A DNA stretch of 33,611 bases, taken from the NCBI GenBank assembly GCA_949287365.1, contig CASEGC010000036.1, positions 1 through 33,611 on the forward strand. Reading direction: 5' to 3'. The notes under the pieces are model-generated. The model was not told the origin of the DNA, did no database searches, and saw only the letters and a list, made by a program, of their open reading frames with translations. Source of the DNA: an uncultured Parabacteroides sp. Its GTDB lineage: Bacteria; Bacteroidota; Bacteroidia; Bacteroidales; Tannerellaceae. Of this stretch, positions 7,553 to 31,005 are shown one piece after another; position 1 is the first letter of the stretch, and each line of letters opens with the position of its first letter. The translations under genes were made by a program, and so were the position numbers.

Positions 7553-7690
7553 GTTTCCATGGAAGGGAACTTTCGTTTCCTTATAAGGGAACGTCCGTTT
7601 CCTCGGTAGGAAACGCCGGTTTCCTTAGCGGGAAACAACAGTTTCCTCGCATGGAAACTTGAGTTTCCTAACAAGGAAATTTAAGGAAAC
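7553..7690. repeat. Array A: six hairpin units of exactly 22 bp (GTTTCC type)
   Basis: Units start at 7553, 7575, 7597, 7619, 7641 and 7663, exactly 22 bp apart, with a partial seventh (GGAAAC at 7685). Each unit is GTTTCC, six variable bases, GGAAAC or GGGAAC, then four variable bases, so each can fold into a 6-bp hairpin. The arms are conserved while loops and spacers vary. The array lies in the 435-bp gap 7446-7880 between the divergent sigma gene and susC; the gap also holds a GC-rich hairpin (7734-7777) and no gene. Confidence 0.9.
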
Positions 7691-7733
7691 TATAAATATC
7701 TGATTTCGTTTAACATAGCGTAAGGCGAGAAAC

Positions 7734-7777
7734 CGGCTACGCTCGCTCCGCGGAAGCGCGGCCCGAAAGCGTAGCCG
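7734..7777. promoter_or_regulatory. GC-rich two-tier hairpin upstream of susC
   Basis: CGGCTACGCT (7734-7743) and AGCGTAGCCG (7768-7777) are perfect 10-bp arms. Within the loop CCGCG (7748-7752) and CGCGG (7757-7761) form a second perfect stem with a GAAG loop. It lies 104 bp before the susC ATG in otherwise AT-rich DNA. It may be a leader structure controlling susC, or a regulator-binding site. There is no T-tract after it. Confidence 0.55.
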
Positions 7778-7880
7778 ACTCATCCCGCGAGCCAGCCGTT
7801 TACCTAATTTAACATTACCCGATTAAGTAAGAAAAACAAAAATATTGTCCTTAATGTAAATTGTCGAACCTTCTAATAAC

Positions 7881-10800
7881 ATGACACGCATGAAAAAGAA
7901 ATTCTATCGAGTGTCTATTCTCTGCTTAGGAGCATTGATGGCGGCCACTTATTTGCACGCCAGCGCGCAGAAAATCACCCTACGGGAGAATAACATCTCC
8001 TTGAAGCAAGCTTTCGAGCTGCTCGAGGATGCCTCACAGTACAAGATCGCGTACAACGAGAGTAAATTGGATGTCTCACGGAACGTCTCCATCCATGCCG
8101 AGAACCAAGAGGTGACGGAAGTGTTGGAGAATCTGCTCGCCCAAACGGGATACACGTTCAAGGTAAAAGACAACTACCTCGTAATCGTCCCGGCCAACCA
8201 ACAACAGAAGAAAGTAATCAAGGGAACGGTGTTTGACGAGAGCGGAGCGCCCATTATCGGGGCCAACGTCATCGAGAAGGGAACCACGAACGGGACCATC
8301 ACCGACCTGAACGGTGGTTTTCGTCTGGAGATATCGGACAACGCCTCCCTCCAGATTTCCTACATCGGTTACGTCAACCATGAGGTCAAGGTGAGGCCGG
8401 ACATGACCTCGCTATCCGTCACCTTGCGGGAAGACACCGAGCGGCTGGACGAGGTGGTGGTGGTAGGTTACGGCACGCAGAAAAAGGTGAACCTGACCGG
8501 TTCGGTACAGAGCGTATCCAGCGGCGACTTGGTCAAACGAAACCTTTACAGCTCCTCGCAAGCGTTGCAAGGATTGGTGCCGGGCATGATAGTGACCCAA
8601 AGCTCCGGTGCTCCGGGCGCTACCGCCTCCATCCAAATACGCGGTACGGGCTCCATCAACTCCAATACCTCACCTTTGGTATTAATTGATGGTGCCGAGG
8701 GTGACATGGATTCTATCGACCCGAATGCGATAGAGTCCATCTCCGTCCTGAAAGACGCGGCCTCCGCCTCCATCTACGGTTCGCGAGCCTCCAACGGTGT
8801 CATCCTCGTCACCACCAAACGGGCGAAAGAGAACAAGCTGTCCGTATCTTACAACGGTTGGGTAGGTTTCCGCACGCCGACCGAATTGCCGACCCCGGTC
8901 GACGCAGTCACTTACATGGAAGCTATCAACCAAGCGAGCCTCAATAATAACCAGGCTATCCAATACTCCGAGGATATCATAAATATGTATAAGACGACAG
9001 GTCCCGATAACGTACATTACTTCGATACCGACTGGAGAGATCTCGTGTTCGATAACGTGACGCTGACACACAACCACTCCTTGAGCGTTAGTGGTGGCAG
9101 CGACGTGTTAAGGACTTTCGTCAACGCTTCTTACAACTATGAAGATGGTTTGATACCGAACAATACTTCCACACGTACCGCCATCCGCTCGAATACCGAT
9201 GCGAAAATTACCGACTGGTTGCGCGCGGGCCTGAACTTGAATATCCGCAGGACCGTGCAAAAGAATCCAACCTATGGAACGAATAGTATCATCAATAGCG
9301 TATTACGGTTCACTCCGCTTTTCGCCGCGGTCAACCAAGACGGGACATGGGGTAACGGACAAAACGGTAACAACCCGTTAGCGATGTCGACAACAGGAGG
9401 AGCCTCGACCAGCGATAACAACGACATCGACGTGAAAGGAACTATCGCCTTAACTCCATTCAAAGGGTTTGAGGTTTTGGCAAGCTACGCCAGCCGTCAT
9501 TACGAGAACAAGACGGACAGTTTCCAAAATACGTATGATACTTATGAGGATGGTAACTTCATGATGACCTACCCGACTCGAAAATCAAGGTCCGAATCAT
9601 GGAGCCGACTGATAAAGAACCAGTTCAATGCGCAAATCACCTACGAGAACACCTTCAACGAGAAGCACTATTTCAAGGGATTAATCGGTTTCCAGACCGA
9701 CGAGTTGAAGAACAAAAGCCTCAGCGGAGGACGGAACGGTTTCTACTACGACGGCTATGAGGAGATGATGCATGGCGACGCGTCCTCGTCTTCCATCACG
9801 GGCAGCAGCTCCGAGTTGGCGATGATGTCTTACTTCGCCCGTTTTAACTACACCTTCGCGGATAAATACCTGATTGAGCTGACCGGACGTTACGACGGTT
9901 CTTCCCGTTTCACGCCCGACAACCGTTGGGGATTCTTCCCGTCAGCGTCCGTAGGATGGCGAATCTCCGAAGAGAATTTCTTCAGCCCCCTGAGAAAAAC
10001 CATCGACAACCTGAAGATTCGCGCCTCTTACGGCTCTTTGGGTAATCAAGATATCAGCGGATATTATCCGTATGCCGCGAGTTTAGCTTCCGGAGCCTCT
10101 TATTGGTTCGGCGACGCGAAGAACTATACGACAGGTATCTACGCGTCCGCTCTATCCAATCCGCTTATCACTTGGGAAAAATCCGAACAATTCGACGTTG
10201 GTTTGGACTTGACGGCGTTCGACTCTCGTTTGGACGTAACGTTCGATTATTACGTACGTAACGTGAGCGATATGTTGCAACAATTTCCGGTCACCTTCGC
10301 GGTGGGTCTTTCCTCCGCCTGGGAAAACGCCGGAGACATGCGGAACAAAGGTTGGGATTTGAGCGTGACGTGGCGCGACCAAATCGGGAAAGTGAAGTAT
10401 AACGTGACCGCCATGCTCTCCGACGTGAAGAACGAGGTGACGAACCTGTACGGCAACGAGTACATCAACGCGAACAATACGACACAAGAGGGTTATCCGA
10501 TTTACTCTTGGTACGGATACGTAGCCGACGGGTTCTTCCAATCGCGTGAGGAAATCGAGGCGAACCCCGTTTACGGCAACAATAAGGACAACGTGAAACC
10601 AGGATACATCAAGTACAAGGATATCAGCGGACCGGACGGCGTACCCGACGGACAAATCACGGACGCGGACCGGACGATTATCGGCGACCCGCAGGCTCGT
10701 TACTCTTTCAGCTTGAACTTGGGAGCGGAATGGAACAATTTCGACTTTAACGTATTCCTGCAAGGCATCGGCAAACGGGATATCTTCTTCGATGGAGCTG

Positions 10801-11171
10801 GAGCCAGACCATTCTACGTGGGTGGTACCATCTACGAATACCAATTGGACACATGGACAGAGAATAATCGCGACGCAGCATATCCTCTGTTGCTAATCGA
10901 AGGTAATGCTGGCGGAAACATGAACAACATTCCTTCCTCTTTCTGGGTAAAGAGTGGAGCGTACATGCGTTTGAAAAACGTGAGCATCGGATACTCCTTG
11001 CCGAAAAAACTCTTGGCGAAAACGAAACTGGGTAATGTCCGCTTTTACATAAGTGGCCAAAACCTGTTCACGATATCGAACGCTTATGAGGGATACGACC
11101 CGGAAGGTGATATCGCGAATTACTATCCGGTCATGCAAGTTTATACATTTGGAGTTGACATAAGATTTTAA
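7881..11171 (+). CDS. SusC/RagA-family TonB-dependent outer-membrane transporter with STN signalling domain
   Basis: SusC-type proteins are 22-strand outer-membrane barrels that import a ligand captured by SusD, driven by TonB. The 1096-residue protein has a signal peptide (about 1-29), an STN domain (about 31-103, ITLRENNISLKQAF), a CarboxypepD_reg-like domain (about 112-183, IKGTVFDESGAPIIGANV), a TonB-box-like segment DEVVVVGYG (about 190-198), a plug (about 200-315, with VPGMIVTQSSGAPGATASI) and then the barrel, ending in aromatic residue F after VDIR. The STN domain marks it as a transducer that talks to FecR and the ECF sigma factor encoded divergently. A second ATG three codons in is an equally good start. 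SusD follows after 12 bp. Confidence 0.97.
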   Translation: MTRMKKKFYRVSILCLGALMAATYLHASAQKITLRENNISLKQAFELLEDASQYKIAYNESKLDVSRNVSIHAENQEVTEVLENLLAQTGYTFKVKDNYLVIVPANQQQKKVIKGTVFDESGAPIIGANVIEKGTTNGTITDLNGGFRLEISDNASLQISYIGYVNHEVKVRPDMTSLSVTLREDTERLDEVVVVGYGTQKKVNLTGSVQSVSSGDLVKRNLYSSSQALQGLVPGMIVTQSSGAPGATASIQIRGTGSINSNTSPLVLIDGAEGDMDSIDPNAIESISVLKDAASASIYGSRASNGVILVTTKRAKENKLSVSYNGWVGFRTPTELPTPVDAVTYMEAINQASLNNNQAIQYSEDIINMYKTTGPDNVHYFDTDWRDLVFDNVTLTHNHSLSVSGGSDVLRTFVNASYNYEDGLIPNNTSTRTAIRSNTDAKITDWLRAGLNLNIRRTVQKNPTYGTNSIINSVLRFTPLFAAVNQDGTWGNGQNGNNPLAMSTTGGASTSDNNDIDVKGTIALTPFKGFEVLASYASRHYENKTDSFQNTYDTYEDGNFMMTYPTRKSRSESWSRLIKNQFNAQITYENTFNEKHYFKGLIGFQTDELKNKSLSGGRNGFYYDGYEEMMHGDASSSSITGSSSELAMMSYFARFNYTFADKYLIELTGRYDGSSRFTPDNRWGFFPSASVGWRISEENFFSPLRKTIDNLKIRASYGSLGNQDISGYYPYAASLASGASYWFGDAKNYTTGIYASALSNPLITWEKSEQFDVGLDLTAFDSRLDVTFDYYVRNVSDMLQQFPVTFAVGLSSAWENAGDMRNKGWDLSVTWRDQIGKVKYNVTAMLSDVKNEVTNLYGNEYINANNTTQEGYPIYSWYGYVADGFFQSREEIEANPVYGNNKDNVKPGYIKYKDISGPDGVPDGQITDADRTIIGDPQARYSFSLNLGAEWNNFDFNVFLQGIGKRDIFFDGAGARPFYVGGTIYEYQLDTWTENNRDAAYPLLLIEGNAGGNMNNIPSSFWVKSGAYMRLKNVSIGYSLPKKLLAKTKLGNVRFYISGQNLFTISNAYEGYDPEGDIANYYPVMQVYTFGVDIRF

Positions 11172-11183
11172 AACGAGATTATC

Positions 11184-12959
11184 ATGAAACAGTTTAAATA
11201 TATTCCATATTTATATATGTGCGCTTTAATGTTCACCGGAATTTCCTGTAGCGATTTTTTGGACAGGGAAGACACGAACACGGCGTACACGAGCGAGGGA
11301 TTCTTTACCAGCGAGGCCGCCATTAAAGAAGGGGCTACCGGGTGTTACGCGAACCTTTATATGGAGATAGAGGGCAGTATCGCACACTCCACCATATTTG
11401 ATTTCTATACGGGACTGGCCTGTGAAAGAACCGAGAATACGACCATTGGAGCGGGAGGCGCATTAAATGCGGACAACGCCACGATTCAAAGCCTTTGGTC
11501 GAATCTATACACAAACGTCGCAAGAGCGAATTCTTTCCTTTCGGGCGTAGAACCCAATTTAGCCACATTGAACGAAACTTGCCTGCGATACGTGGCGGAA
11601 GTGCGCATCTTAAGAGCTTATAACTATTATCTATTAATCGCGTTGTGGGGTGACGTGCCTTTCTATACGACACCACCTACACCGGAAGAATACGAGGTAG
11701 CGAAAACCTCCAAAGTGGAGATTTTGGATTTCATCATCAAGGAATGTACCGAAGCGGCGGAATATCTGGATTGGACAGCGGAAGAGCGAGGACGTGTGGA
11801 TAAACCGTTCGCGTTAGGCATGATTAATCGTGCGGGTTTATTGGGTGGTAGCCTGGATTACGGAGGCAAAGGACAAGAATATTTCCGGACCGCCGCCGAC
11901 GCGGCTTCCCAAGTGATAGGGAAACGAGCTTTGGCAAACAATTACGAAGATTTGTTCTATGTGGCAGGACAAGCGAAATCCGATGTCCGCAACGAGATGA
12001 TTTTTGAATTAATGTATACGGTTAACGGAACAAACGTACATCGGAATTGGACCGGTTTCGGATTTGTATCCCGCATGCAAGGACAAACTTCCCGTCATCC
12101 GACCATGATGTTGGCGGATACTTACGAGTGTATCGACGGAAAGCGTATCGACGAATCACCGCTTTACGACCCTCATCATCCGCAATTGAACCGCGACCCG
12201 CGCTTCAAAGCGACCTTATGGATGCATGGCGATACCGCCACCTGCAATATAGGCTCAATGAGTTCCGTCATCATCAACGCATATGATATAGAAACGCAGC
12301 AGTATAACTATACGACCGGTCTGTGGGAAGTACGGAATAACGACGACGTGAACAGCGCGGCGGCTTGGGCGAGTTTCACCAACGCTGGGTGCGGTTATAT
12401 AGCGGCCAAGTATGCGAAAGAGACCTCCGAAAATATCAATTACACGGGGCAGAACGTACCTATCATGCGTTACGCCGAAATCTTGTTAGGTTACGCCGAG
12501 GCGAAAATCGAATTGGGCGAGTTGGACCAAAGCGTATATGACGCGATCAACCAAGTAAGGAACCGTGTGGGAATGCCAAACGTTTCCAACGATAGAATAG
12601 GCAATATCGACAAGATGCGCCAATTGGTCCGTAGGGAACGTAAGGTAGAATTCGCTTTAGAAGGCTTGCACATAGTGGATATGCGGAGATGGGGTATCGG
12701 TGATTTGGAAAACGAAGGCCCGCTTTATGGAAGGCCTAATGAGGATATCCGTTACGAAGGTTTGGCGGATACCGATATACCGAACTTCAAGAAGACGGAA
12801 CGTCATGACTTGAACGATATAGCGACTTACGACGCATATAAAGATAAACTAAAAATGCGTGACGCGAACCGCTATTGGGAACCGAAGTTCGCCTTATGGC
12901 CGATTCCACAACAAGAGTTAGACCGTAACCCGAATCTGGTACAGAACGATGGGTATTAA
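11184..12959 (+). CDS. SusD/RagB-family ligand-binding outer-membrane lipoprotein
   Basis: SusD is the surface lid of the SusC barrel and binds the ligand through a TPR-like helical fold. The 591-residue protein has a lipoprotein signal with lipobox TGISC (Cys22) followed by SDFLDRED, as usual for SusD. Typical family segments are visible: EVRILRAYNYYLLIALWGDVP (about 140-160), MRYAEILLGYAEAKIELG, and the C-terminal RKVEFALEGLHIVDMRRW, with FALWPIPQQELDRNPNLVQN at the end. The surface binding residues cannot be tied to a given sugar. It is in one operon with susC. Confidence 0.96.
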   Translation: MKQFKYIPYLYMCALMFTGISCSDFLDREDTNTAYTSEGFFTSEAAIKEGATGCYANLYMEIEGSIAHSTIFDFYTGLACERTENTTIGAGGALNADNATIQSLWSNLYTNVARANSFLSGVEPNLATLNETCLRYVAEVRILRAYNYYLLIALWGDVPFYTTPPTPEEYEVAKTSKVEILDFIIKECTEAAEYLDWTAEERGRVDKPFALGMINRAGLLGGSLDYGGKGQEYFRTAADAASQVIGKRALANNYEDLFYVAGQAKSDVRNEMIFELMYTVNGTNVHRNWTGFGFVSRMQGQTSRHPTMMLADTYECIDGKRIDESPLYDPHHPQLNRDPRFKATLWMHGDTATCNIGSMSSVIINAYDIETQQYNYTTGLWEVRNNDDVNSAAAWASFTNAGCGYIAAKYAKETSENINYTGQNVPIMRYAEILLGYAEAKIELGELDQSVYDAINQVRNRVGMPNVSNDRIGNIDKMRQLVRRERKVEFALEGLHIVDMRRWGIGDLENEGPLYGRPNEDIRYEGLADTDIPNFKKTERHDLNDIATYDAYKDKLKMRDANRYWEPKFALWPIPQQELDRNPNLVQNDGY

Positions 12960-12966
12960 TTTTTAG

Positions 12967-13039
12967 TTCCGGATTTATAAGTTTTTTGATTTCTTGAATT
13001 TATCTTTGGGAAGAAAATCAGAAATTTACAAACCCGGAA
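12967..13039 (+). other. Long imperfect hairpin between susD and the oxidoreductase gene
   Basis: Segments 12967-12995 (starting TTCCGG) and 13011-13039 (ending CCGGAA) can pair over 29 positions with about 22 matches around a 15-nt loop. It fills most of the 107-bp gap after susD. It could stabilise the susC-susD message or reduce transcription into the downstream genes. No T-tract follows. Confidence 0.4.
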
Positions 13040-13066
13040 ATTTAAAAACAAAGAAACTCCAATAAC

Positions 13067-14794
13067 ATGAAACGAAGAGACTTTTTGACTTATAGTATGT
13101 TAGCGGGAGGAAGCTCGTTACTGCTTCCTTTAGCGAGCGCTTGCCAGCAAAGTGGGAAAACGTCCATGTCTTCCCCTATTGGCGGCAAAGGAAAAACAAG
13201 TGAGCTCCAAGCGGACCTCGCCATCATCGGAGCCGGTTTTGGCGGTTGCGCCGCGGCATTGGCGGCTTGCCGGAACGGAATGAATGTCATACTGACCGAG
13301 GAAACGGATTGGATTGGCGGACAAGCTACCCAACAAGGCGTACCGCCCGATGAGCATCCTTGGATAGAGACACATGGGGCCAACGCCTCCTATCGCATGT
13401 ATCGAAACAAGACGCGAGAATATTATCGACGGAATTATCCGCTTACGGACGAGGCACGTGCCAACATGAACCTGAATCCCGGAAACGGAACAGTCTCCCG
13501 AATCTGCCACGAGCCCGCCGTAACGGTAGCGGTGCTGATGGAGATGCTGATGCCTTACATCGGTATGGGACGGTTATTGCTTTTACTGAATCACAAAGCG
13601 ACAAAGGCGGAGACGCGAGGCGACGAGGTCTTGTCTGTCACCTTGCGAGATTCGCTCAGCGGAGATGATGTCACGCTGGTCGCTCCCTACTTCGTGGACG
13701 CTACGGAACGTGGAGACCTTTTGCCATTGACGAAAACCGAATACGTTACCGGAGCGGAATCGAAAGAAGAGACCAAAGAGCTGCATGGAGCGGACAAGGC
13801 GGACCCGACCAACAATCAGGCGTTCACGGTCTGCTTTACCGTGGAATACGTGGCCGGAGAGGACTGGACCATCGACAAACCCGCCAATTACGCCTTTTGG
13901 CATGACTATGTTCCCAACTTGATCCCCGCATGGACCGGCAAGCTACTGGACCTCACTTATCCTACTCCATCCACGCTGAAGCCGAACCACGCCACCTGCG
14001 TGCCGGACGGCTCACAAACCAAGGCGTTCAACTTCTGGACTTACCGGCGAATCATCGACCCAAGTAACTTCATGCCCGGAACCTATAAAGGGAGCACGTC
14101 TCTCATTAATTGGCCGCAAAACGATTATTTGTTGGGCAATATCATCGATGTTTCCGAAGAGGAGTTTCAAAAACACGTGAACGCGGCGAAAGAATTGAAC
14201 CTCTCGTTACTCTATTGGCTTCAGACAGAAGCGCCCCGCCCCGACGGAGGAAGCGGATGGAAAGGTTTACGGCTGCATAAAGGTCTGCTCGGCACGCAAG
14301 ATGGCATGGCCAAATATCCCTATGTCAGGGAAGCTCGCCGAATCAAGGCGGAATTCACGGTCTTGGAAGAACACGTGGGCAAGGAAAACCGAAAGCTCGT
14401 CTCCGGAGAGGAAAGGGCCGCATGGTTCGAGGATAGCGTAGGCGTAGGTTTCTACAACATCGACCTGCATCCCACTTGTGGAGGGAATAATTATATCGAC
14501 TTCAGGGCATTACCATTCCAAGTACCTTTAGGAGCGTTATTGCCTCAACGGGTGAATAACCTGCTCCCCGCTTGTAAGAACATCGGGACAACCCATATCA
14601 CGAACGGTTGTTATCGTGTCCATCCGGCGGAATGGGGAATCGGTGAGGCGGTAGGTTTGTTGGCTACATTTGCCAAAAACAAGAAACAACCGCTCCGTGC
14701 CATTCGCGCCAACAAGCGATTATTGGCGGACTTCCAACAATGGATTCAACAGCAAGGCGTGGAAATCGCCTGGCCTAAAGACTCTATCTTATAA
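13067..14794 (+). CDS. Exported FAD-dependent oxidoreductase (FAD_oxidored family)
   Basis: The 575-residue protein starts with RRDFL followed by a hydrophobic stretch and LASAC (Cys26), which reads as a Tat-like or lipoprotein signal, so it is probably outside the cytoplasm. A Rossmann motif for FAD binding is at about 50-80 (LAIIGAGFGGCAAALAA, with Glu79 ending the beta strand). Other family marks are GGQATQQGV, YFVDATERGDLLPL, and the C-terminal ITNGCYRVHPAEWGIGEAVG. Such genes are often labelled xanthan lyase in Bacteroidales, but the sequence supports a flavin oxidoreductase and not a lyase. It follows susD in the same direction, so it likely oxidises the imported ligand or a product. 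The substrate is unknown. Confidence 0.85.
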   Translation: MKRRDFLTYSMLAGGSSLLLPLASACQQSGKTSMSSPIGGKGKTSELQADLAIIGAGFGGCAAALAACRNGMNVILTEETDWIGGQATQQGVPPDEHPWIETHGANASYRMYRNKTREYYRRNYPLTDEARANMNLNPGNGTVSRICHEPAVTVAVLMEMLMPYIGMGRLLLLLNHKATKAETRGDEVLSVTLRDSLSGDDVTLVAPYFVDATERGDLLPLTKTEYVTGAESKEETKELHGADKADPTNNQAFTVCFTVEYVAGEDWTIDKPANYAFWHDYVPNLIPAWTGKLLDLTYPTPSTLKPNHATCVPDGSQTKAFNFWTYRRIIDPSNFMPGTYKGSTSLINWPQNDYLLGNIIDVSEEEFQKHVNAAKELNLSLLYWLQTEAPRPDGGSGWKGLRLHKGLLGTQDGMAKYPYVREARRIKAEFTVLEEHVGKENRKLVSGEERAAWFEDSVGVGFYNIDLHPTCGGNNYIDFRALPFQVPLGALLPQRVNNLLPACKNIGTTHITNGCYRVHPAEWGIGEAVGLLATFAKNKKQPLRAIRANKRLLADFQQWIQQQGVEIAWPKDSIL

Positions 14795-14826
14795 AAATGA
14801 AACGACGTGATTCTTTGATACTCATC

Positions 14827-16040: not shown

Positions 16041-16089
16041 AAACCGATACCGATTATCCCCCATTTAATCCCGTACCGACAAGACCGCG

Positions 16090-16155
16090 GTCCTGAGCTA
16101 TTAGGACTGGAGTCCTGACGCTAAAGGACAGCAGTCCTGACAGCACGGGACTCGC
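16090..16155. repeat. Array B: three hairpin units of exactly 22 bp (GTCCT type)
   Basis: Units start at 16090, 16112 and 16134. Each begins GTCCTGA and carries AGGAC or GGGAC 13 bases later, giving 4-5 bp hairpin arms. The palindrome GACCGCGGTC (16083-16092) overlaps its left end. It lies in the 251-bp gap between the convergent SGNH and DUF3256 genes. Confidence 0.85.
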
Positions 16156-16235
16156 CATGCGATTAACCCTTGACGCAGCCGGCAAAGCGACCGGTCGCCT
16201 CATTTCTATATAGCTTGGGATTCGCGGATATTCAT

Positions 16236-16269: not shown

Positions 16270-16291
16270 ATCGTTCGTCATCCGATTTACT

Positions 16292-17842: not shown

Positions 17843-17846
17843 TCCC

Positions 17847-20099: not shown

Positions 20100-21119
20100 T
20101 TATATCACGACCCTTGAGAAAGGAGCCGCGTCTATCGGACAAAAATCCTTATCCATGTATTTATAATAGCCGGTAATCGCCACCATGGCCGCATTATCCG
20201 TGGTGAAAGAGAATTTAGGAATATAGACCTTCCACCCGTAACGTTCGGCGTGATCAAGGAAAGCGTCGCGCAACCCTGAATTGGCGGAAACGCCACCCGC
20301 CACGGCCACCTCTTTAATCCGCAAGTCCTTCACCGCCTTACGCAACTTATTCATCAAGATATCAATAACCGTCGCTTGCAACGAGGCGCAAAGGTCCCTC
20401 TTGTTTTTCTCTATGAAATCCGGGTCCTCTCTCAAACGATCGCGCAAAGTATACAAGAAAGAGGTCTTCAAGCCGCTGAAGCTATAGTCATATCCCGGGA
20501 TATGCGGCTTACTGAAGGCGAAGGCCTTCGGATCGCCCTCGTTGGCCAAGCGATTTACGACCGGTCCGCCTGGATATCCCAAGCCCATCACCTTGGCGCA
20601 TTTGTCGAACGCCTCCCCCGCGGCATCGTCGATAGTCTGGCCAATCACCTCCATATCATCGTATGCGTTCACCTTAATGATTTGCGAGTTTCCGCCGGAG
20701 ACCAGCAAACAAAGGAACGGGAACGAAGGCGAATGCTCGTCTTCTGGCGTCTCCTTGATGAAATGAGCTAGCACATGCGCCTGCAGGTGATTGACCTCTA
20801 TCATCGGAATCCCCAACGAGAGAGCCAAACCCTTCGCGAAGGAGGTCCCGACCAATAAAGACCCCATCAAGCCCGGTCCCCGAGTGAACGCGACCGCGCT
20901 CAACTCGGACTTGTCGATACCTGCCCGCTTAATCGCCTCGGACACGACGGGAATAATATTTTGCTGATGCGCCCGCGAGGCCAATTCCGGGACTACTCCT
21001 CCATAAGCCTCATGAACGACTTGCCCGGCGATCACGTTGGACAACATCACGCCATCGCGAATCACGGATGCGGAAGTATCGTCGCACGAGGACTCTATTC
21101 CTAATATCGTCACGCTCAT
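20100..21119 (-). CDS. tsaD: tRNA N6-adenosine threonylcarbamoyltransferase
   Basis: TsaD transfers the threonylcarbamoyl group to A37 of ANN-decoding tRNAs, working with TsaB and TsaE. The 339-residue protein has the ASKHA start VTILGIESSCDDTSASVI, the iron-binding His111 and His115 in NHLQAH, LVSGGNSQI, and ATP-binding AVAGGVSANSGLR near residue 275. It lies head-to-head with the tamB-like gene (116-bp gap). Confidence 0.97.
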   Translation of the reverse strand: MSVTILGIESSCDDTSASVIRDGVMLSNVIAGQVVHEAYGGVVPELASRAHQQNIIPVVSEAIKRAGIDKSELSAVAFTRGPGLMGSLLVGTSFAKGLALSLGIPMIEVNHLQAHVLAHFIKETPEDEHSPSFPFLCLLVSGGNSQIIKVNAYDDMEVIGQTIDDAAGEAFDKCAKVMGLGYPGGPVVNRLANEGDPKAFAFSKPHIPGYDYSFSGLKTSFLYTLRDRLREDPDFIEKNKRDLCASLQATVIDILMNKLRKAVKDLRIKEVAVAGGVSANSGLRDAFLDHAERYGWKVYIPKFSFTTDNAAMVAITGYYKYMDKDFCPIDAAPFSRVVI

Positions 21120-21166
21120 ATTCTCTTTTTTCCCGCAAATTAACGAAAACTATCGCAATAATATCG

Positions 21167-21174
21167 TAGATTCG
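21167..21174 (+). promoter_or_regulatory. Weak candidate -7 element for the tamB-like gene
   Basis: TAGATTCG is one base from TAnnTTTG and sits 18 bp before the ATA codon and 62 bp before the TTG start. No -33 element is visible, so this is a weak call. Confidence 0.25.
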
Positions 21175-21184
21175 CGCTAAATAA

Positions 21185-24100
21185 ATAGAAAAAGATATCA
21201 GAGGATTAAAATACATAATCATCACCCTGCTTTCATTGTTCTGGATATTCTATGCGTTGCCGAGTCTATCGCTAAGAGTTCCCTTCGTTCAAGCTAAGGT
21301 ATCGGAAATAGCGACGGCCCGATTATCCGAATATCTTGGCGTGCCCGTGAAAATCGAACGTATCGGTATCGAATGGTTGAACAAGGTCGTATTGGAAGGC
21401 CTTTACCTAGAGGACCAGGAAGGGAAAGCCTTGTTGGAGGCGAACCACGTGACGGCGGGTTTCGAGGTCATGCCCCTGTTCGAGAAGAAAATCGTCTTCA
21501 ATACGGTACGTCTATTCGGATTCTCCCTTAACTTAAGGAAAAAGACCCCGGGCAGCCCATTGAACCTACGATTCGTCATAGATGCTTTCGCCCGGAAAGA
21601 CACAGTCAAAAGGGAGAGGGACATCGACCTCCGTTTCAACTCGATATTGCTCCGAAGAGGAAATGTTAGCTATCACGTGGCAAGCGAGGAACTAACCCCC
21701 GGGAAATTCAACGCGAAGCATATCGATATCCAAAACCTCAGTGCGAAGATATCGCTCAAGGCTCTTACCAAAGATAGCCTGAACGCTTACGTCAAGAAAA
21801 TGAGCTTCGACGAAGCCTCCGGATTTTCTTTAAGGAAATTATCGCTAAGCGTCATAAGCAATAGGGACAGCGCCAATCTCCAGGATTTCGAGGTCCACCT
21901 GCCTCAAACCGACCTTTACATAGGCTCGGCTCACATCGACCTGACTAAGGTAAGGGACATACCCTCTTTCTTGAACCACGCCGCGATCGGATTAAACATC
22001 GCCCCTTCGCGGATATACCTGAAAGACTTGTCCCCGTTCGTACCCACGCTGAAGAACTTCACCGATTCCATCGAGTTCTCCGCCGAGGTGGACGGCTTCA
22101 TCAACCATTTCAACACGCAGCGCATAACGCTGAAATATAGTGACAAGATGCTGTTTGTCGGACAGATGGAGCTAAAGAATATCACTCATCCCAAGGAAGC
22201 ATACATCTTCGGTAAAGTCAACAAGATGTATCTCTCCACGGATGGCATCGCCGATCTGGTCCATAACCTCAACAATCGGTCGATACGCCTTCCCGAGCCG
22301 GTCGCCCGTCTGGGGACCATCAATTTCACGGGAGAGATATCCGGCTTTCCCGACAATCTCGTGGCGTTTGGCAAGTTCTCGTCCACGATTGGTTCCATAC
22401 AAGCCGACTTGATATTCGGCCACGACAAGGAGAGGAATATCGCGGCGTATTTGCGCGGGCACGTCTCTTCCGACAACTTACGGATTCACGAGCTTTTCGA
22501 GAAAAACAATCCTTTCGGAAAAGCCTTGTTCGACATCGATATCGATGCCCACCGTCCCATAAACGGGAATTTCGGGGGAAACATCCAAGCCAGGATAAAA
22601 GAGTTCGATTACAAATCGTACAAATATAAAGACATCGGTCTGTCCGGGAATTTCAAGAAAAACAGTTTCGATGGGACCATACGAATAAACGACCCGAACG
22701 GCGACCTGTATGCCAAGGGATTTTTCCGGCATCAGGGACAAAACTCCCTGTTCAATTTCACCGCCCGGCTCGACCATTTCCGGCCGGACCGGTTGCACTT
22801 GACGGACAAATACGAACGACCGGATATCTCGTTCGCTTTGAACGCAGACTTCACCGGCGACAATATCGACAATCTGGAAGGCTCCATCCGGATGGACAGC
22901 CTCTCGTTCAATACCGCCCCCGATAGCTTCTTCCTCAAACGGTTGGAAATCGTGGCGTCCGGACATCATCTCGACAGACGGCTGGCAATCCATTCCGACA
23001 TCCTGAACGGAGAGGTGACCGGAGCCTACTCGTTCCGGACATTGACGCAAAGCTTGATAAGTACATTCGGGGAATATGTGCCCGCCTTGGCGCGTACGCT
23101 TCCCGAAAAGCGGGCCGACACGGAAAACAACTTCGCACTTTTGCTGACCATCGGGAACACGGAAGCGCTCTCCTCCACCTTAAAACTACCTTTCACGATG
23201 GTCCAGCCAGGACGCGTCGCAGGGCATTACAACAATATCTACGACAAGTTCAGGATAGAAGCTTGGCTCCCGAAATTCAAGTTGGGTAAATCCACGTTCG
23301 ACTCCGGCCATCTGCTCTGCGAGAACCCAGGCGATAAGGTTGACCTGCGGTTAAAGGCAACCCACTACAACCGGAAAGGATTACGTAATTACCTCGACCT
23401 GAAAGCGGACGCCAAGGACAATAGGGTGAACACAGCGATCGAATGGGCCACGAACAAGGAACGGCTTTTCAAGGCGGACATCACCGCCTCCACCCGTTTC
23501 GTTGAGGAGGAGACGGAATATGGTGCCCGTCCGCATGCGGAGATGACACTCAACGAAAGCCCGCTCATCATCAACGACACGACCTGGCGAATCAACCCGG
23601 CCCACATCACCCTTCGAGACGGGAAGATCGATATCCGTAACTTCCGAATAGAACGAGAGAACCAACACCTCACGATGGACGGCTTGATATCGAGAGACCC
23701 AGCGGATAGTCTGTTGGTAGACCTGCGCCAAATCGAGCTGAGCTACGTGTTCGATATCCTGAATATCCCCGTGCTTCAATTCGGGGGGAAAGCGACCGGA
23801 CGCTTCTATGTGAACGACCTCTATAACAGTCGGCGTTTGGACACGAACCTTGAGATACGGGACTTCTCCTTCAACGATGTCACCTTCGGCCGCCTGAACC
23901 TATTCAGCGCATGGGACGACAAGCGGAAAGGAATCCTCATGCGAGGTAATATCTACAAGAACGACAGCACTTGGACCTACGTGGACGGCTATGTCTTCCC
24001 CGTAGGGCCCAAGGCGGGGCTATCGCTTTATTTCGACGCGAACGACATCGACCTCGCCTTCTTGCGCCCCTTCGTCGACAAGGTGGTGAAAGACTTGAGC

Positions 24101-25702: not shown

Positions 25703-25851
25703 TCAAAATCAGGTATTGGCACGCGAGATAGACGTGGAAAGCAGACTCTATGACTTCGCGGGCAAATAGCCAAATACGTGGAAATAAATATCGCCCATCC
25801 GTCATGGAAGGGAATAACTATGCCCATCCGTGTTTGAATAAAAACGGATAG

Positions 25852-26008
25852 GGGAAAAAAGTTCCATAACCGGGAGGAAAACTTGTAAATCCGGCGGGAA
25901 AAATCGGGAACTCCACGAAGAAAAGTCTATCTTTAGCTTAAAGATATGCATCTTTAGGCTGCAGATATATATCTTTAGGCTTGCGATATGTATCTTTAGG
26001 CTAAAGAT
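25852..26008. repeat. Array C: degenerate 22-bp units leading into four 21-bp hairpin units
   Basis: In the 407-bp gap 25703-26109, which has no gene, ATCTTTAG starts at 25929, 25950, 25971 and 25992, exactly 21 bp apart. The first and last units are good hairpins (ATCTTT and AAAGAT; ATCTTTA, GGC, TAAAGAT); the middle two are weaker. Upstream, purine-rich G/A starts recur at 25852, 25874, 25896 and 25918, 22 bp apart, each with about 10 purines. CCCATCCG also recurs at 25794 and 25823. The gap separates the convergent tamB-like and glycosyltransferase genes. Confidence 0.75.
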
Positions 26009-26109
26009 AGAGATTTCCCCGTTATGCGACGGACTTTTTCCTATAGGGTTCGAGGTTTTTTCTCCCTTCTTTTCCTTTTTTCTCTCCTATCGAATCTATC
26101 GGACTCACG

Positions 26110-27264
26110 TTAATATAAACGAGATTTATCGGATTGTTTTTTATCTTTCATGGCGGATTCATAGACTTTCGATACCTCGTTAGCGATTTTGTCCCAATCA
26201 TACTTCCGCATATCGTAATCGACGTGCCTCAGCGGCTCATCCATGATATATCTTAACTTTTCCGCGAGCGTGTCTACGTTTCCCACAGGGAAATAATCGT
26301 TCTTGTCGAGTCCTACCTCCAAGTTGGCGGGGATATCGCTCACTAATACTCTCACGCCGTAACTCATCGCCTCCAGCAAGGCTATCGGCAATCCCTCATG
26401 GCTCGATGGCAGGCAATAGCAGCGGCAATTCGTGAATAAAGATTGTAGTTTCCGTCCTTTGACGAATCCGGTCAATATCACGCCATTCTCTCGCACGGTC
26501 CGCTTCAATTCGCGCGAATAATCGTCCTCGAAATCGGTGTCTCCGGCCAATACCAGCTTGATATCATCCGCGAGATTCCCGTCATGTCTCTCTCCAAGCC
26601 GGCTCTTGGCACGGACAAAGGCCTCGATGAGGTGGTGCAGGTTCTTTTCCGGGACGAAGCGGCATACGCCTAAGATATATTTTCCTTTCTCGATGCCCAA
26701 CTCTTGGAAATATTCCGGATAATCGCGTTTCTCAGGCTTCGGCACGCCGTTATAAATCAGATGGACGTGTTCCGTCCGGCCGTATTTACATTTGATTAAC
26801 CGCCTGATGACATCCGATATGACGATAACCTCGTCCGCAAACAGGCATCCCAGCCTCTCTCCCAGCCTCAACATCGCCTTGGCCAGCTTGCCCCATTTGT
26901 CCCGGTCATAGTCCGGCCCGTGATGGGTGAACACCAACCTCATCCCCAACAGCTTCGCGTAAGGAGCGAGCAAGGCGGGCCCTATCGCATGGATATGCAC
27001 CACGTCGGCACCAATCTTTCTCGCCCTCGTTATCGCTCGGAACGTGTGTACTATCGCCTCGAATGATTTCTTTTTGGGAGATTTGATGTCGATAAGCCTC
27101 ACGCCTTTCCACTCCGTAAGATTATCCTTCACATAGCTTTCGCGGCGTATCAGCGTGACATCGAAACCACGCACCGCCAGCCTTGGGAACAACTCCTCGC
27201 AATGCGTCTCCACCCCACCCAATATATCGGGGATTCCGCGCGTGCCTGTCACAACGATTTTCAT
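26110..27264 (-). CDS. GT4-family glycosyltransferase
   Basis: The 384-residue protein has the GT-B two-domain shape. The N-terminal half starts MKIVVTGTRGIPDILGGVET, the DUF1972-like pattern seen in rhamnosyl- and related transferases of exopolysaccharide loci. The C-terminal nucleotide-sugar domain (about 190-370) carries GVCRFVPEKNLHHLIEAF and the EX7E motif in SSHEGLPIALLEAM. It would move a sugar from an activated donor to a lipid- or polymer-linked acceptor at the inner membrane. The sugar is not predictable. It is the last gene of the exopolysaccharide run, 30 bp after the other transferase. Confidence 0.92.
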   Translation of the reverse strand: MKIVVTGTRGIPDILGGVETHCEELFPRLAVRGFDVTLIRRESYVKDNLTEWKGVRLIDIKSPKKKSFEAIVHTFRAITRARKIGADVVHIHAIGPALLAPYAKLLGMRLVFTHHGPDYDRDKWGKLAKAMLRLGERLGCLFADEVIVISDVIRRLIKCKYGRTEHVHLIYNGVPKPEKRDYPEYFQELGIEKGKYILGVCRFVPEKNLHHLIEAFVRAKSRLGERHDGNLADDIKLVLAGDTDFEDDYSRELKRTVRENGVILTGFVKGRKLQSLFTNCRCYCLPSSHEGLPIALLEAMSYGVRVLVSDIPANLEVGLDKNDYFPVGNVDTLAEKLRYIMDEPLRHVDYDMRKYDWDKIANEVSKVYESAMKDKKQSDKSRLY

Positions 27265-27294
27265 GTGTTATCGGATTAAAGCGTTAAAAAAATA

Positions 27295-28302
27295 TCAAGC
27301 GATACGGCCTATGTTTTTCCCCAGCGCGTAAATCGAATAGCGTTCCTTGAATGTTTCCGTCTCCGCACCCGACATCCTGTCGTACAACTCGGTATCGCCA
27401 TACAGAAGATTCAGCTTCTCAAGCAAATCCTCCCTCTTGTTCTCTATGATGAAGCCCGTTTCCCCGTTTTCCACATAATCGTAAACACCCTTGTTGTTCG
27501 TGACAATCAAAGGCTTCCCCATGCGCATGGCTTGCAATATCACCAATTGCCCAGACGATATCTCCAAGTCTTTCAAGGGTATTACCACCAACTTGCTGTT
27601 ATACATGTATTCCAGCATCTTTTGGTCGTGCGTCCCGTGAAGTATCTCGATGTTCCCCTCATGCCCGATATCCAGGCCGTCGCAAGCTATCTTCACGTTG
27701 AACCTCGTCCCTTTCAAGGATGAGACGAGAAATTCATAATCCCTGTTGCTTCTCCCCGCCGTAAAGATATAATCCCGATTCCTCAAGCTATCGTCCGGCC
27801 TCGGCATCTCCTGAGTAACGGCTATGCCCAAAGGGAAAAACTTGAACTTCTCTTTATGCTCTGGGAAACAGGAAGCGTAAAAATCGACTTCGTTGCGAGA
27901 ATAGACAATCACGTTCCTCAAGTTCGGACTGCCTAACGCATAATTGATAAAAGCTTTATACAACTTTCCGAGAAATCCACGACGTTCCTTATAGATAAAA
28001 GTCATCGCCGTCACACGGACAGTGCGGTTCATCCTGAAAATACGGTTGTAAAACACGTACATCAGTCCATAGAATTGCTGCCAAGCCACGATTTTATCCG
28101 CCCTTTTCCGAAGGAGAACGGAAAGGGGGAACCCGATGTAATTAAGAATTCTTTTGTATCTGGGAACGGACAATCTTCCTTCCCTATACAAGATGTTCCA
28201 TTTTTCCCCGGAAGTCACCTCTATACCTTTCCACAAGCCCCAATCCGCGTCCACGGGCATATCCACCAATATGAGATTCCTGCTATCCATCCGTTGTCCC
28301 AA
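27295..28302 (-). CDS. GT-B-fold glycosyltransferase (exopolysaccharide)
   Basis: The 335-residue protein has a Rossmann-like C-terminal domain (about 170-330) with FTAGRSNRDYEFLVS, the nucleotide-sugar region VVIPLKDLEISSGQLVILQAM and GKPLIVTN, and GVYDYVENGETGFI, as in GT4-like enzymes. The N-terminal acceptor domain is less recognisable. A start at residue 5 (MDSRNL) is also possible. It follows the chain-length gene by 31 bp. Confidence 0.85.
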   Translation of the reverse strand: MGQRMDSRNLILVDMPVDADWGLWKGIEVTSGEKWNILYREGRLSVPRYKRILNYIGFPLSVLLRKRADKIVAWQQFYGLMYVFYNRIFRMNRTVRVTAMTFIYKERRGFLGKLYKAFINYALGSPNLRNVIVYSRNEVDFYASCFPEHKEKFKFFPLGIAVTQEMPRPDDSLRNRDYIFTAGRSNRDYEFLVSSLKGTRFNVKIACDGLDIGHEGNIEILHGTHDQKMLEYMYNSKLVVIPLKDLEISSGQLVILQAMRMGKPLIVTNNKGVYDYVENGETGFIIENKREDLLEKLNLLYGDTELYDRMSGAETETFKERYSIYALGKNIGRIA

Positions 28303-28333
28303 AAGATTCTTTTCTTTACCGAATCATCTCGGC

Positions 28334-29929
28334 TCACCCCCTTTGCCGCTTATATTCTTCCCAAAGCTGGACGGATTGCTTCCTGACGAATAGATAGCAT
28401 ACCGGAACCACCAGCGTCAGGGCCAGCATACCAATAGCGGCATATAATTTACGAGGACCTATGGGCTGGCTCTTCACGTAAGCGGGGTCGATGATTTTCG
28501 CCTTATCGCGGTTATTGCCCAAGATAAGCGCAGTCTCTTCCCGCTTCTGCAAAAGCAACAGATAAACCCCTTGGATAATCTCCTGCTGGCGCTTCAATTC
28601 CACATATTGGCGTTCCGCCACGGGATAACCAGTCATCTTATCGTATATCTGTTTCTCTTTCGCTTTTATCTCCGCGATCGTGGCTTGGATGGCCTTCCGC
28701 GCGTTACCGATTGTCTCCACCACGCTCCCGCGCAACTCGTCCGCCTGTTTGGTCAATGTCGTAACCAACGGGTTACTCATACTTGAATTCTGGATAACAC
28801 GGGCGCGCTCCAACAAGATTTCGTTATACGTGGTCAACGCGCTTCCTTTCTCACCCTCTTGCGCGTTCAGCAAAACGGGGACCAAGTTGTATTTGTTCGC
28901 GGGATCTTTCACGAAAGCGTCCATCATATCGATTACGTCCGCTTGCGCCGACGACTCAATCAGTTTCAACTGGAGTTCCTGCATTTGCTCCACATAGAAT
29001 TGCACGTCATGCTCCAAATCCATCAATTGGTATTTGCTTTTGTATGCCTCGATTTGATTCTCCACTTCGGCGAGCTCGGTCACAAGATTCCCTATCCTGC
29101 CATCGAAAAAGACCAAGGCTTTACGCGCCTCCTCTTTCTTATAATCTTCCGCTTCCCGGTTATAAATGGCTATCAAGGTGTCCAACATCTCCGTACCCCG
29201 TAGCTTCTCATAATCCGTGCAGCTCAACTCAATCACGTTGGAGGTCTTGGAATTCTCCTCTATCGTGAATTCCTCCTCCAACACCTCGGCCATCCATCCC
29301 GCCGGACGATAAGTGATATTCAACCGGACGGAAGCGGGTGTCTCCATTCCCGCCTTGTCCAACGTGAAATTACCTACCGGCAACTCGAGCTTAGCGGGCA
29401 ACGAGGCGAAAGTGAAATTCTTCTTCTTCATATTGATGGATTTCGCCGAGACATGAATCTCATTATTCTTCATGGAGACCTCAAACGTCACCTCTTCGGC
29501 CAAACGAGCGTTCGTGACGGAATCGGCGGTCATCACCAGCGGGGTCTCCTCATACATCCGATAAAAGGAGAAAGGTTTCTTGTAATCCACGTTCACGCCC
29601 AAGCGCAAGGCCATCTCCCGCAACATCTTATTGGAAGTCAGCGCCATCAACTCATCCTCTATATTCACTACACCTCCAGATACGCTTCCCAACCCGAAAG
29701 ATTTCATCAAGCCGGCCGCCTCGCCCAAACCGAAACTGCCGCCACCCAAATTCTTGTCTTCCTGAATCTGGATACGAGCCGCTATCTCGTAAGTACGGGG
29801 ATAGAGAACCAAATACAGGACAGCGGGTATTATCGAGAAGATGAATACGCCTAAGAACAATTTCCAATGCAATAAATATCCGGCGATGATGCTTTTAAGC
29901 CCAATCGTTTCGTTGTCTTTTATTTCCAT
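28334..29929 (-). CDS. Wzz/GumC-type polysaccharide chain-length regulator
   Basis: The protein sets polymer length and couples synthesis to export across the inner membrane. It has 531 residues with two membrane helices: about 25-45 (LFLGVFIFSIIPAVLYLVL) and about 497-517 (IGMLALTLVVPVCYLFV). Between them lies a Wzz domain (about 15-110) and a long helical coiled-coil periplasmic part, with a GNVR-like stretch near MTGYPVAERQYVELKRQQEI before the second helix. No tyrosine kinase domain follows, so it is the kinase-free form. It follows wza by 10 bp. Confidence 0.92.
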   Translation of the reverse strand: MEIKDNETIGLKSIIAGYLLHWKLFLGVFIFSIIPAVLYLVLYPRTYEIAARIQIQEDKNLGGGSFGLGEAAGLMKSFGLGSVSGGVVNIEDELMALTSNKMLREMALRLGVNVDYKKPFSFYRMYEETPLVMTADSVTNARLAEEVTFEVSMKNNEIHVSAKSINMKKKNFTFASLPAKLELPVGNFTLDKAGMETPASVRLNITYRPAGWMAEVLEEEFTIEENSKTSNVIELSCTDYEKLRGTEMLDTLIAIYNREAEDYKKEEARKALVFFDGRIGNLVTELAEVENQIEAYKSKYQLMDLEHDVQFYVEQMQELQLKLIESSAQADVIDMMDAFVKDPANKYNLVPVLLNAQEGEKGSALTTYNEILLERARVIQNSSMSNPLVTTLTKQADELRGSVVETIGNARKAIQATIAEIKAKEKQIYDKMTGYPVAERQYVELKRQQEIIQGVYLLLLQKREETALILGNNRDKAKIIDPAYVKSQPIGPRKLYAAIGMLALTLVVPVCYLFVRKQSVQLWEEYKRQRG

Positions 29930-29939
29930 TTTCCAAAAA

Positions 29940-30746
29940 TTATCTACTTGTAATTGCCAATATAACGGTCGTTATCACGGAAATCGCACTCAAGATAGAC
30001 GAGAACACGGTAATGCTATATTGTTGCGCCTGGCTGTAACGGGCATTCCGCTTCTTCGCGTCGTTCGGCTCCACGTACACCACGTCGTTCTGGCGCATAT
30101 AATAATATGGAGAGGCGAAAATATCCGGCGAAGTCAAGTCGAGACGCACGAACTCTTTCTCCCCGTTAGTATCCCGTATCAACAGTATATTTTTCCGGTT
30201 CGCGTTAATCGTCAAATCCCCGGCCCGTCCCAAAGCGTCCAAGATAGAAATCCTGTCGTTGGAAACGGTGACCACGCCCGGCCGAGCGACCTCTCCCAAT
30301 ATCATGAGCTTGTAATTCACGATTTGTATGTTCACGATCGCGTCGCTCACGTAGGCGTGAATCTTACTCTCCAACTCCTCGCTCAGTTGCTGCTTTGACA
30401 ATCCCGCCGCACGGACTTTCCCGAGCACCGGAAAATTGATATATCCCTCCTTGTCCACCAAATAGGTCTGCAATTGCGTAGTGGTCGACGTGGAAATTTC
30501 CCCTTGCGTCGCGTAAGAATAGGCCGGCGGATTGAACGGGGTGACTACCGTCGGATCCCAAGCCGTAACCGTAATCGAAAGCAGATCATCCGGATAAATT
30601 TGAGACTGGTAAGGTTGCGTCATGCGCTCCACCTGCTCTTTCGTCAAATCGTCCACTCCCTGAAAATAAACCACGTCCTTGGGCACGGAGCAGGCTCCCA
30701 CCAACAAGGCCAGCCCTATCACCACCGCTGCTACATTTAATTTCAT
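29940..30746 (-). CDS. wza: Wza-type polysaccharide export outer-membrane lipoprotein
   Basis: Wza-type proteins form the outer-membrane channel for capsule or exopolysaccharide. From the ATG at 30746 the protein has 268 residues. The lipobox VGACS sets the mature N-terminus. A Poly_export domain (about 40-150, PDDLLSITVTAW) and SLBB-like domain (about 155-230, IMLGEVARPGVV-like run around LMILGEVARPG) follow, with a C-terminal membrane helix (ITVFSSILSAISVITTVI). An ATG at 30800 would add 18 residues before the signal peptide and would overlap the -7 element, so it was not chosen. Confidence 0.93.
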   Translation of the reverse strand: MKLNVAAVVIGLALLVGACSVPKDVVYFQGVDDLTKEQVERMTQPYQSQIYPDDLLSITVTAWDPTVVTPFNPPAYSYATQGEISTSTTTQLQTYLVDKEGYINFPVLGKVRAAGLSKQQLSEELESKIHAYVSDAIVNIQIVNYKLMILGEVARPGVVTVSNDRISILDALGRAGDLTINANRKNILLIRDTNGEKEFVRLDLTSPDIFASPYYYMRQNDVVYVEPNDAKKRNARYSQAQQYSITVFSSILSAISVITTVILAITSR

Positions 30747-30773
30747 AATCTCGTCTTTCTTCAAATAAGGGTG

Positions 30774-30805
30774 CAAATATACAACATTATTAAATACCAC
30801 CGAAA
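30774..30805 (-). promoter_or_regulatory. Promoter of the wza-wzz-glycosyltransferase operon
   Basis: On the minus strand TATATTTG (30774-30781) fits TAnnTTTG, and TTTC (30802-30805) sits exactly 20 bp upstream, one base from the TTTG -33 element. The -7 element is 28 bp before the chosen wza ATG. Confidence 0.65.
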
Positions 30806-30917
30806 CACCACCAAGCCTAATCGCGGCCGCGATGATGCTTTAATAACGACGCGAAAGCCCGATTATTGCTGCATGCCCTCGCAAAAAAAGTCAGTTCCAA
30901 AGCCTTTAAGAAAACAT

Positions 30918-31005
30918 GCGCATGTTCCGGGAAAAAGACGTACATCTCCTTGGGAGAACACGTACATGTCATTAGAAAAAGACGTACGTGTTTTTCCCAA
31001 GCTCT
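30918..31005. repeat. Array D: four units of exactly 22 bp (GTAC type)
   Basis: Units start at 30918, 30940, 30962 and 30984. Units 2-4 begin GTAC and units 1 and 3 end in AAAAAGAC. Hairpins include the palindrome AACATGCGCATGTT (30914-30927), TCTCC-TTG-GGAGA in unit 2, and GAAAAAGACGT with ACGTGTTTTTC (30976-30997). It lies in the 371-bp gap between the divergent wza and rubrerythrin genes; that gap otherwise holds only the two promoters. Confidence 0.8.

Follow-up and report, generated by a model that had tools for sequence, protein, structure and literature searches.

The window analysed here is the whole of a 33,611-bp stretch, contig C36 (CASEGC010000036.1) of the draft genome of an uncultured Parabacteroides sp. 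(GCA_949287365.1; 2.54 Mb, 144 contigs, 76% complete), hereafter the source genome. The rubrerythrin encoded in the window is 97% identical to its Parabacteroides faecis counterpart. Four of the intergenic spacers contain arrays of short tandem units, named A to D, and array C forms the core of a larger element with flanks of its own. Three genomes of the same genus, G005, G019 and G026, served for comparison; G005 and G019 are each 99% complete, and of the same-genus genomes it is G005 whose TamB-like fragment is closest (92%). The features, with the evidence on which they rest, are as follows; TRF stands for Tandem Repeats Finder, MITE for miniature inverted-repeat transposable element, TIR for terminal inverted repeat and ORF for open reading frame.

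7551..7690, no strand assigned: array A, six 22-bp units GTTTCC-N6-GGRAAY-N4 and a partial unit, of a family dispersed in the source genome (TRF, unit table, shuffles, genome copies).
16083..16155, no strand assigned: array B, three 22-bp units GTCCT-N8-RGGAC-N4 (TRF, unit table, shuffles, genome copies).
16156..16210, no strand assigned: flank of B, judged by eye to be homologous to the flank outside the repeats in copies L018, L019 and L023; the outer end is given approximately.
25852..25927, no strand assigned: left flank of C, GGGAAAA-type modules with a 21-22 bp pitch, in phase with the core (low-threshold TRF; A-tract positions in 30 source and 22 G019/G026 copies).
25928..26009, plus strand: core of C, consisting of four units of 21 bp around TATCTTTAGGCTAAAGATA; most listed copies have a core length of 82 bp (TRF, copies, unit table).
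26010..26085, no strand assigned: right flank of C, TTTTTCC-type modules that recur every 21-22 bp and roughly reverse-complement those on the left; the outer end is given approximately.
26095..26110, minus strand: right TIR of the C-bearing MITE, TCTATCGGACTCACGT, with at most 4 mismatches to the TIR; it overlaps one stop-codon base of a glycosyltransferase-like ORF (26110-27264).
30909..30996, no strand assigned: array D, four units of 22 bp around ACGTACATGT or ACGTACGTGT, of which the first has diverged (TRF, unit table, shuffles, genome relatives).

With regard to the arrays themselves, TRF called A at 7551-7628 (period 22), B at 16083-16141 (22), C at 25928-26009 (21) and D at 30931-30991 (22). 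Within the limits drawn for the arrays in a preliminary description of the window, the best lag was 22 for A, B and D and 21 for C, with 61-69% matches, and in each array the best-lag match was above that of every one of 2000 mononucleotide shuffles at any lag from 10 to 44. The arrays are thus real and lie where that description had placed them, and its cores (GTTTCC, GTCCT, ATCTTTA and GTAC) are correct. Its gene contexts agree with the ORF map, in which A and D lie between divergent ORFs and B and C between convergent ORFs. Array C as then drawn (25852-26008) takes in about 75 bp of the left flank, where GGGAAAA-type units unlike the core follow the same pitch. At up to 4 mismatches, no left TIR was found for the window copy of C.

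The pitch pattern is confirmed to be real and to be broader than the four arrays of the window. The sample of the source genome comprised 429 kb (the window and 20 stretches, picked partly from contigs already known to carry C), with 46 kb of spacers used for array counts. Spacer autocorrelation, the check suggested in the preliminary description and run here on this sample, showed peaks at lags 21, 22, 42 and 44 (z of 14.6, 11.7, 14.0 and 8.5, respectively); lags 41 and 43 formed shoulders, and values were also high for very short lags, namely 1, 2, 4 and 6. The coding DNA of the same sample exhibited mainly 3-periodicity. After masking of the C arrays, the source spacers still peaked at 22, 42, 44 and 21, and the spacers of G005, which are devoid of any C, peaked at 21-23.

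Counts of individual arrays point in the same direction. We counted TRF arrays of at least 2.4 copies, used dinucleotide shuffles as the null and defined two period classes, 20-24 bp and 40-48 bp, arrays in either of which are called in-class. In the source genome, 69 of the 74 spacer arrays were in-class (46 at 20-24 and 23 at 40-48), compared with 0.8 in shuffles (0.6 + 0.2); C and its flanks account for about half of them, and away from any C unit the figure was 33 of 37. G019 exhibited 44 in-class arrays out of 47 (26 + 18; shuffles 0.4, that is 0.2 + 0.2), and 25 out of 28 away from C. The G005 stretches (974 kb) were picked blind to content, except for two TamB-contig stretches and the continuations of four contigs already viewed, and 71 of their 102 arrays were in-class (55 + 16; shuffles 1.8, that is 1.8 + 0.0), a count that is inflated at period 21 by ten arrays of AT-rich, heptamer-like families. 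Another 15 arrays of G005, out of class, are heptamers (period 7). The heptamer-like spacer repeats of this genome (e.g. L244:5193-5300 and L267:0-526, of ATTGACA and ATTTCAA types) are a different kind of repeat. Among further same-genus genomes (19 stretches, three of which had no usable spacer), 19 of 25 arrays were in-class, and these showed further cores.

In 80 named Bacteroidales loci, the in-class share drops to 33 of the 71 arrays found (periods 10-60 bp). When these loci were grouped by record title, with the arrays pooled since per-locus autocorrelation is noisy, in-class arrays made up 10/13 in Bacteroides, 6/8 in Bacteroidaceae, 4/7 in Parabacteroides, 2/2 in Phocaeicola and 6/25 in unclassified Bacteroidales. 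The 200 kb of Escherichia coli K-12 contained one array, of period 32. Three plasmid or phage stretches of 50 kb yielded few arrays, with periods of 32, 32, 56 and 23 in a P. distasonis plasmid, 15 in a B. finegoldii record and 14, 21 and 23 in crAss001. The two period-32 arrays of the P. distasonis plasmid (NZ_CP120354.1; L321:5760-6454 and 20798-21627) share a similar TTAGTTGTGTANAAGTGTCC-like core, with 5.6-5.7 copies each.

The common pitch is not accompanied by a common sequence. The 184 in-class arrays of three genomes fell by blastn into 79 clusters, including 60 singletons, where family 3 and, judging from their units, probably families 24 and 57 correspond to C flanks, and families 5, 6 and 16 correspond to AT-rich heptamer-like arrays of G005. 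Because only part of each genome was sampled, further copies of a singleton may exist elsewhere. A common period in the absence of a common sequence, as described for the window, therefore recurs over the sampled genome and the genus. By contrast, the accompanying statement that the arrays are not a spreading element does not hold, as all four window cores have further matches in the source genome: six places for A, five for B, 13 (weak) for D and 39 for C. For C, a first look yielded 116 candidates, and all of the 40 that were scored (the window included) matched; its copies number dozens per genome. On contig C15 of the source genome (157 kb), known C sites occur every 4-22 kb (at 1.6, 15, 37, 52, 70, 82, 86, 97 and 108 kb), in a list that is perhaps incomplete. 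Several C arrays were scored as coding in the ORF mask, which is relevant to annotation because arrays of this kind can be covered by spurious ORFs. The stretch L053, which contains three arrays, had no second copy in the whole source genome, where it matched only itself; therefore low-copy or unique cores exist too. As for array B, its flank in L018 and L019 reads ...GTGATGAGTCCCGTGC..., which by eye resembles a hammerhead ribozyme core; Rfam gave no match for the window copy. Above the gathering score, the Rfam search of the window returned two tRNAs only and no match to an array, a result that concerns the window copies.

With respect to its distribution, C had matches in the source genome, G019 and G026 but none in the other 56 genomes of the relatives search, and is therefore patchy. 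In conserved gene pairs (36 in the comparison with G005 and 17 in that with G019), four spacers held an array in one genome and none in the other; two rows with weak two-copy TRF calls were excluded, and the 900-bp cut missed a C spacer common to the source genome and G019. This orthologous spacer holds C in both genomes, and two further C sites lie on the opposite side of the same genes. At the C site downstream of TamB, no empty site could be read in the 15 of 30 loci viewed (source included), where gene order differed or the other strand was shown. Of 32 C rows, one site being listed twice, 17 are in tandem, 11 in divergent and 4 in convergent gene contexts, so that a location between opposing transcription units, as stated for the window, is not a general rule.

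The step between units falls in a narrow range. Centre-to-centre steps were 21 bp in 113 of 120 cases for C, and in the other families 170 of 242 steps were at 21-24 bp and 46 at 42-46 bp. Three or more units were detected in 64 non-C arrays; of these, 32 had equal steps throughout and 8 had steps that were equal or multiples. Palindrome length was far more variable than pitch (standard deviations of 3.2 and 0.8, r = -0.19, n = 104 arrays, taken at period 20-24), and therefore pitch is not set by palindrome length. Palindromic units were found in 51 of the 69 in-class arrays of the source genome. Deviation from the array consensus affected 27% of sites in loops and linkers and 11.5% in arms (periods 40-41 excluded), which agrees with the earlier observation that arms are kept and loops vary, even if the difference is partly built in by the method.

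In element C, the 82-bp core of four units was present in 28 of 31 listed source copies and in 23 of 25 listed copies of G019 and G026. In its inner units, one half-site tends to stay conserved and the other drifts, on a consistent side: deviations amounted to 16 versus 146 in the source genome (88 halves each), 15 versus 93 in G019 (49) and 13 versus 31 in G026 (21), with some bias built in because the sides were ranked per copy. On either side of the core, A-tracts recur in phase. In the source genome, AAAA lies at 3, 24-25, 46-47 and 67-69 bp to the left, and TTTT at 3, 25, 46-47 and 67-69 bp to the right; in G019 and G026 (n = 22), peaks occur at 3-4, 24, 45 and 66 bp to the right and at 3-4, 24 and 66 bp to the left. 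The pattern is similar in these genomes, and by eye their far flanks look unrelated. The consensuses of the left and right flanks are near reverse complements. Taken together, core and phased flank modules give C a dyad-symmetric structure that spans about 230 bp and has one module roughly every 21 bp.

At some sites of the source genome, C is carried in a MITE of about 278 bp with IS982-type ends. The TIR ACGTGAGTYCGATATAA (at most 1 mismatch) occurs 26 times in the source genome and once in G019 (L292, next to a C array), and was found in neither G005 nor G026. Inward of 20 of the 26 source ends, C units lie at about 90-105 bp, at 18 sites (one with a single unit and one cut by a contig end). 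Both ends were present at ten C sites, where the distance between them was 274-283 bp in eight cases, 213 in one and 312 in another. A separate search for TIR pairs returned 5 rows with spacings of 278-283 bp, which represent 4 distinct sites because one is listed twice. At these sites, C is thus part of a MITE, a short, non-coding, multi-copy element with TIRs at both ends. Counted by eye, TA, a possible target site duplication, precedes 19 of the 26 ends. Most of the approximately 116 C candidates have no TIR at the stringency used. As C in G019 and G026 almost always occurs without TIRs, these copies do not belong to the MITE as defined by its ends, and the MITE is more likely one vehicle of C than its origin.

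The six TIR ends without C are of more than one kind. Three of them lead, at contig edges, into one common sequence with the appearance of an insertion sequence (IS). On a plasmid record, this DNA matches an annotated IS982 transposase region, on the strand opposite to the query peptide; no complete IS bearing both ends was seen. This IS-like end with the C-MITE TIR is found at L303, L312:1501-1638 and L318:1501-1638, at the ends of contigs C1, C57 and C137, the position expected if an IS is present in several copies and interrupts the assembly. At L297 (C84:16412-16428), the TIR has no C units inward and a loose opposite TIR lies 597 bp further on, possibly delimiting other cargo or marking a lone end. 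One TIR for all array families was considered and rejected: TIR pairs were found around C, at 4 source sites, and a loose 251-bp pair in G005 (L250), which spans coding-like sequence and heptamer repeats, looks like chance.

Several known systems resemble these arrays in part. BrickBuilt, a Porphyromonas gingivalis MITE with 19 copies, consists of 23-nt tandem repeats between a leader and a tail that bear TIRs; it has from 1 to 22.8 repeats, said to be without spacers between them, and its DNA matches are reported in P. gingivalis only, with homologues in P. gulae (PMC4596501). Like C, it is an intergenic, dispersed element of tandem units with TIRs in the same bacterial order. It differs, as far as descriptions can be compared, in having one core, whereas C usually consists of four palindromic units of 21 bp and has different TIRs as well as A-tract modules, and a pitch rule over many cores was not found stated for BrickBuilt in the part of PMC4596501 consulted. 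The same source reports 22-, 23- and 41-nt tandem repeats in P. gingivalis W83, places the 41-nt repeats in MITEPgRS/464, and describes the 23- and 41-nt units as lacking homology. These reported lengths fall in the classes of 21-24 and 40-42 bp, and we therefore take the P. gingivalis repeats, judged by their unit length, as likely relatives in kind (PMC4596501). In G026, a spacer of L285 (7268-7792) holds a 41-bp array of 9.5 copies with 93% matches, which looks much younger than the 22-bp arrays and agrees in unit length with the 41-nt repeats of P. gingivalis. In MITE239, another P. gingivalis element, the left TIR as printed opens with the same 16 bases as the source C TIR (PMC4596501, Table 2); ISPg3, of the same TIR type, is filed under IS5, whereas the source IS region matches an annotated IS982 transposase, and no mention of a tandem array in MITE239 was found in the part of PMC4596501 consulted.

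Another parallel is offered by phased A-tracts and curved DNA (PMC3940949). A-tracts flank the core of C in helix phase, with the difference that the step of C is two turns and is tied to a palindromic core. A survey of periodic repeats in 7006 prokaryotic genomes found heptamers to be the commonest intergenic tandem repeats, and its main text contains none of the terms Bacteroid-, Porphyromonas, 21 bp and 22 bp (PMC6344855). A literature search that left most subscription papers uncovered turned up no paper recognisable as describing, for Parabacteroides or Bacteroides, a rule of 21-22 bp pitch. The earlier statement that no named family behaves in this way is only partly correct, given the P. 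gingivalis repeats of 22, 23 and 41 nt, two kinds of which lie in named MITEs (PMC4596501).

Based on these observations, we tentatively read A-D as phased dyad arrays, that is, as helically phased, sequence-specific DNA sites for a protein, partly dispersed by MITEs; we consider this reading plausible rather than probable, and the protein is a conjecture. A common process at the DNA level or a phased DNA-binding protein, as proposed in the preliminary description, thus remains the best reading. The arrays would belong to a large intergenic element class of the genus, with tandem and often palindromic units that recur every 21-24 bp or 40-42 bp, roughly two or four helical turns. Each core could be the recognition dyad of a dimeric DNA-binding protein, and the step would keep successive dimers on one face of the helix, which may allow cooperative assembly and the bending or wrapping of the spacer. 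Half-site sequence and pitch would be maintained by selection, with loops and linkers drifting, a pattern that in itself is observed. C, with its four core dyads and its A-tract modules on both sides, would be the clearest case. Cores appear to spread as whole arrays, C partly by the MITE and the other families probably by other routes.

Several observations weigh against this reading. The steps vary in 24 of the 64 non-C arrays, several by 1-2 bp and several in heptamer-like arrays, and array A is among them, as the unit detector gave four steps of 22 and a last one of 32. Pitches of 22-24 and 41 do not correspond exactly to whole turns of 10.5, and 62 in-class arrays failed the palindrome filter. 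The low divergence of the arms is partly an ascertainment effect, because the arms served to find the units. In the flanks of C, an off-phase peak occurs at 16 bp on both sides in 6 of the 22 G019/G026 copies, off-phase tracts lie at 60-61 and 83-84 in the source genome, and the left 45-bp peak is missing in G019 and G026. Array positions are mostly not conserved between species, and G005, the closest relative tested, has no C match, so that the C system is dispensable. Furthermore, 79 clusters would demand many proteins or one very relaxed protein, and no search for a cognate protein was made, so the candidate binder stays inferred. A fixed-length duplication process could also give few indels.

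Such fixed-length copying is the main alternative for how the arrays arise: a structure-guided duplication or repair process would add about two turns at a time, in helix-quantised units that then drift and spread. This would account for the single pitch of many cores, for steps that are equal or multiples in 40 of the 64 non-C arrays, for the periods of 42, 44 and 46, which suggest block duplication, and for arrays without a second copy. On its own, however, it explains neither the palindromic units nor the lower divergence of arms, and we know of no enzyme that makes helix-quantised tandem duplications; we find it unlikely. A similarly low probability is given to the view that the arrays are ordinary minisatellites carried by MITEs in the manner of BrickBuilt, with no role of their own and an incidental pitch. 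The C units inward of most TIR ends, the paired ends, the TA before them and the IS end with the same TIR, matching the annotated IS982 transposase region, are all consistent with it, as are MITE239, which shares the TIR over at least 16 bases, and the two other P. gingivalis MITE types that carry 23- and 41-nt repeats (PMC4596501). Nevertheless, C is abundant in G019 and G026, where the TIR is found once and not at all, respectively, the three arrays of L053 were seen without a second copy, and a neutral origin poorly explains a single pitch over many cores or phased A-tracts in otherwise unlike flanks.

The remaining alternatives concern RNA and another type of mobile system. That the arrays act as RNA hairpins (tandem terminators, mRNA stabilisers or small RNAs) is suggested by the many palindromic units and by the predicted stem loops of the BrickBuilt repeats and the promoter activity of BrickBuilt segments (PMC4596501). 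Wobble pairs are also in excess as T.G over A.C, at 251 versus 180 overall and chiefly in divergent spacers (60 versus 28), and arrays are mildly one-sided in this respect (p = 0.016), an effect that related copies such as those of C may cause. In tandem contexts, the sense strand showed no G-U bias (107 T.G versus 119 A.C). The arms did not covary as expected of an RNA stem, with 38 compensated double changes versus 39.1 in shuffles among 79 non-C arrays; what is preserved in the arms therefore seems to be their sequence more than their pairing, an indication that DNA is recognised in a sequence-specific manner. The mixed orientations of C sites, which comprise every gene orientation, do not suggest a terminator role, and pitch is independent of palindrome length. 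We thus regard RNA hairpins as quite improbable. The repetitive extragenic palindromic (REP) and BIME elements associated with RAYT proteins are likewise dispersed intergenic palindromes in arrays, and a system of this type, in which IS200/IS605-like Y1 transposases move the palindromes, would fit the arrays of intergenic palindromes without recognised TIRs in G019 and G026. Y1_Tnp (PF01797), however, had no match in the source genome, within its 76% completeness, or in G005 or G019; one match was found in G026, and 8 of 38 same-genus genomes have one. The three array-rich genomes without a Y1 transposase match, the helical pitch and the many cores set the present arrays apart from REP systems, an origin that is largely refuted by the Y1_Tnp result, unless the enzyme is too divergent for the profile, and that we consider very improbable.

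The earlier interpretation is, on the whole, partly supported. A wider form of the same idea is possible, if doubtful: Bacteroidaceae and Tannerellaceae might share an undescribed intergenic class in which helical pitch and dyad symmetry, and not sequence, are selected, and in which one machinery makes and spreads new cores and shapes most spacer repeats; it would be a duplication enzyme that measures the helix or, alternatively, a family of phased DNA-binding proteins that has diversified. If pitch is selected independently of sequence, this would provide a reason for the repeat lengths of 22, 23 and 41 nt in P. gingivalis, and the spacers of common gut bacteria would contain a hidden level at which the chromosome is organised or regulated, one that would be invisible to sequence-similarity searches because many of the arrays look unique.

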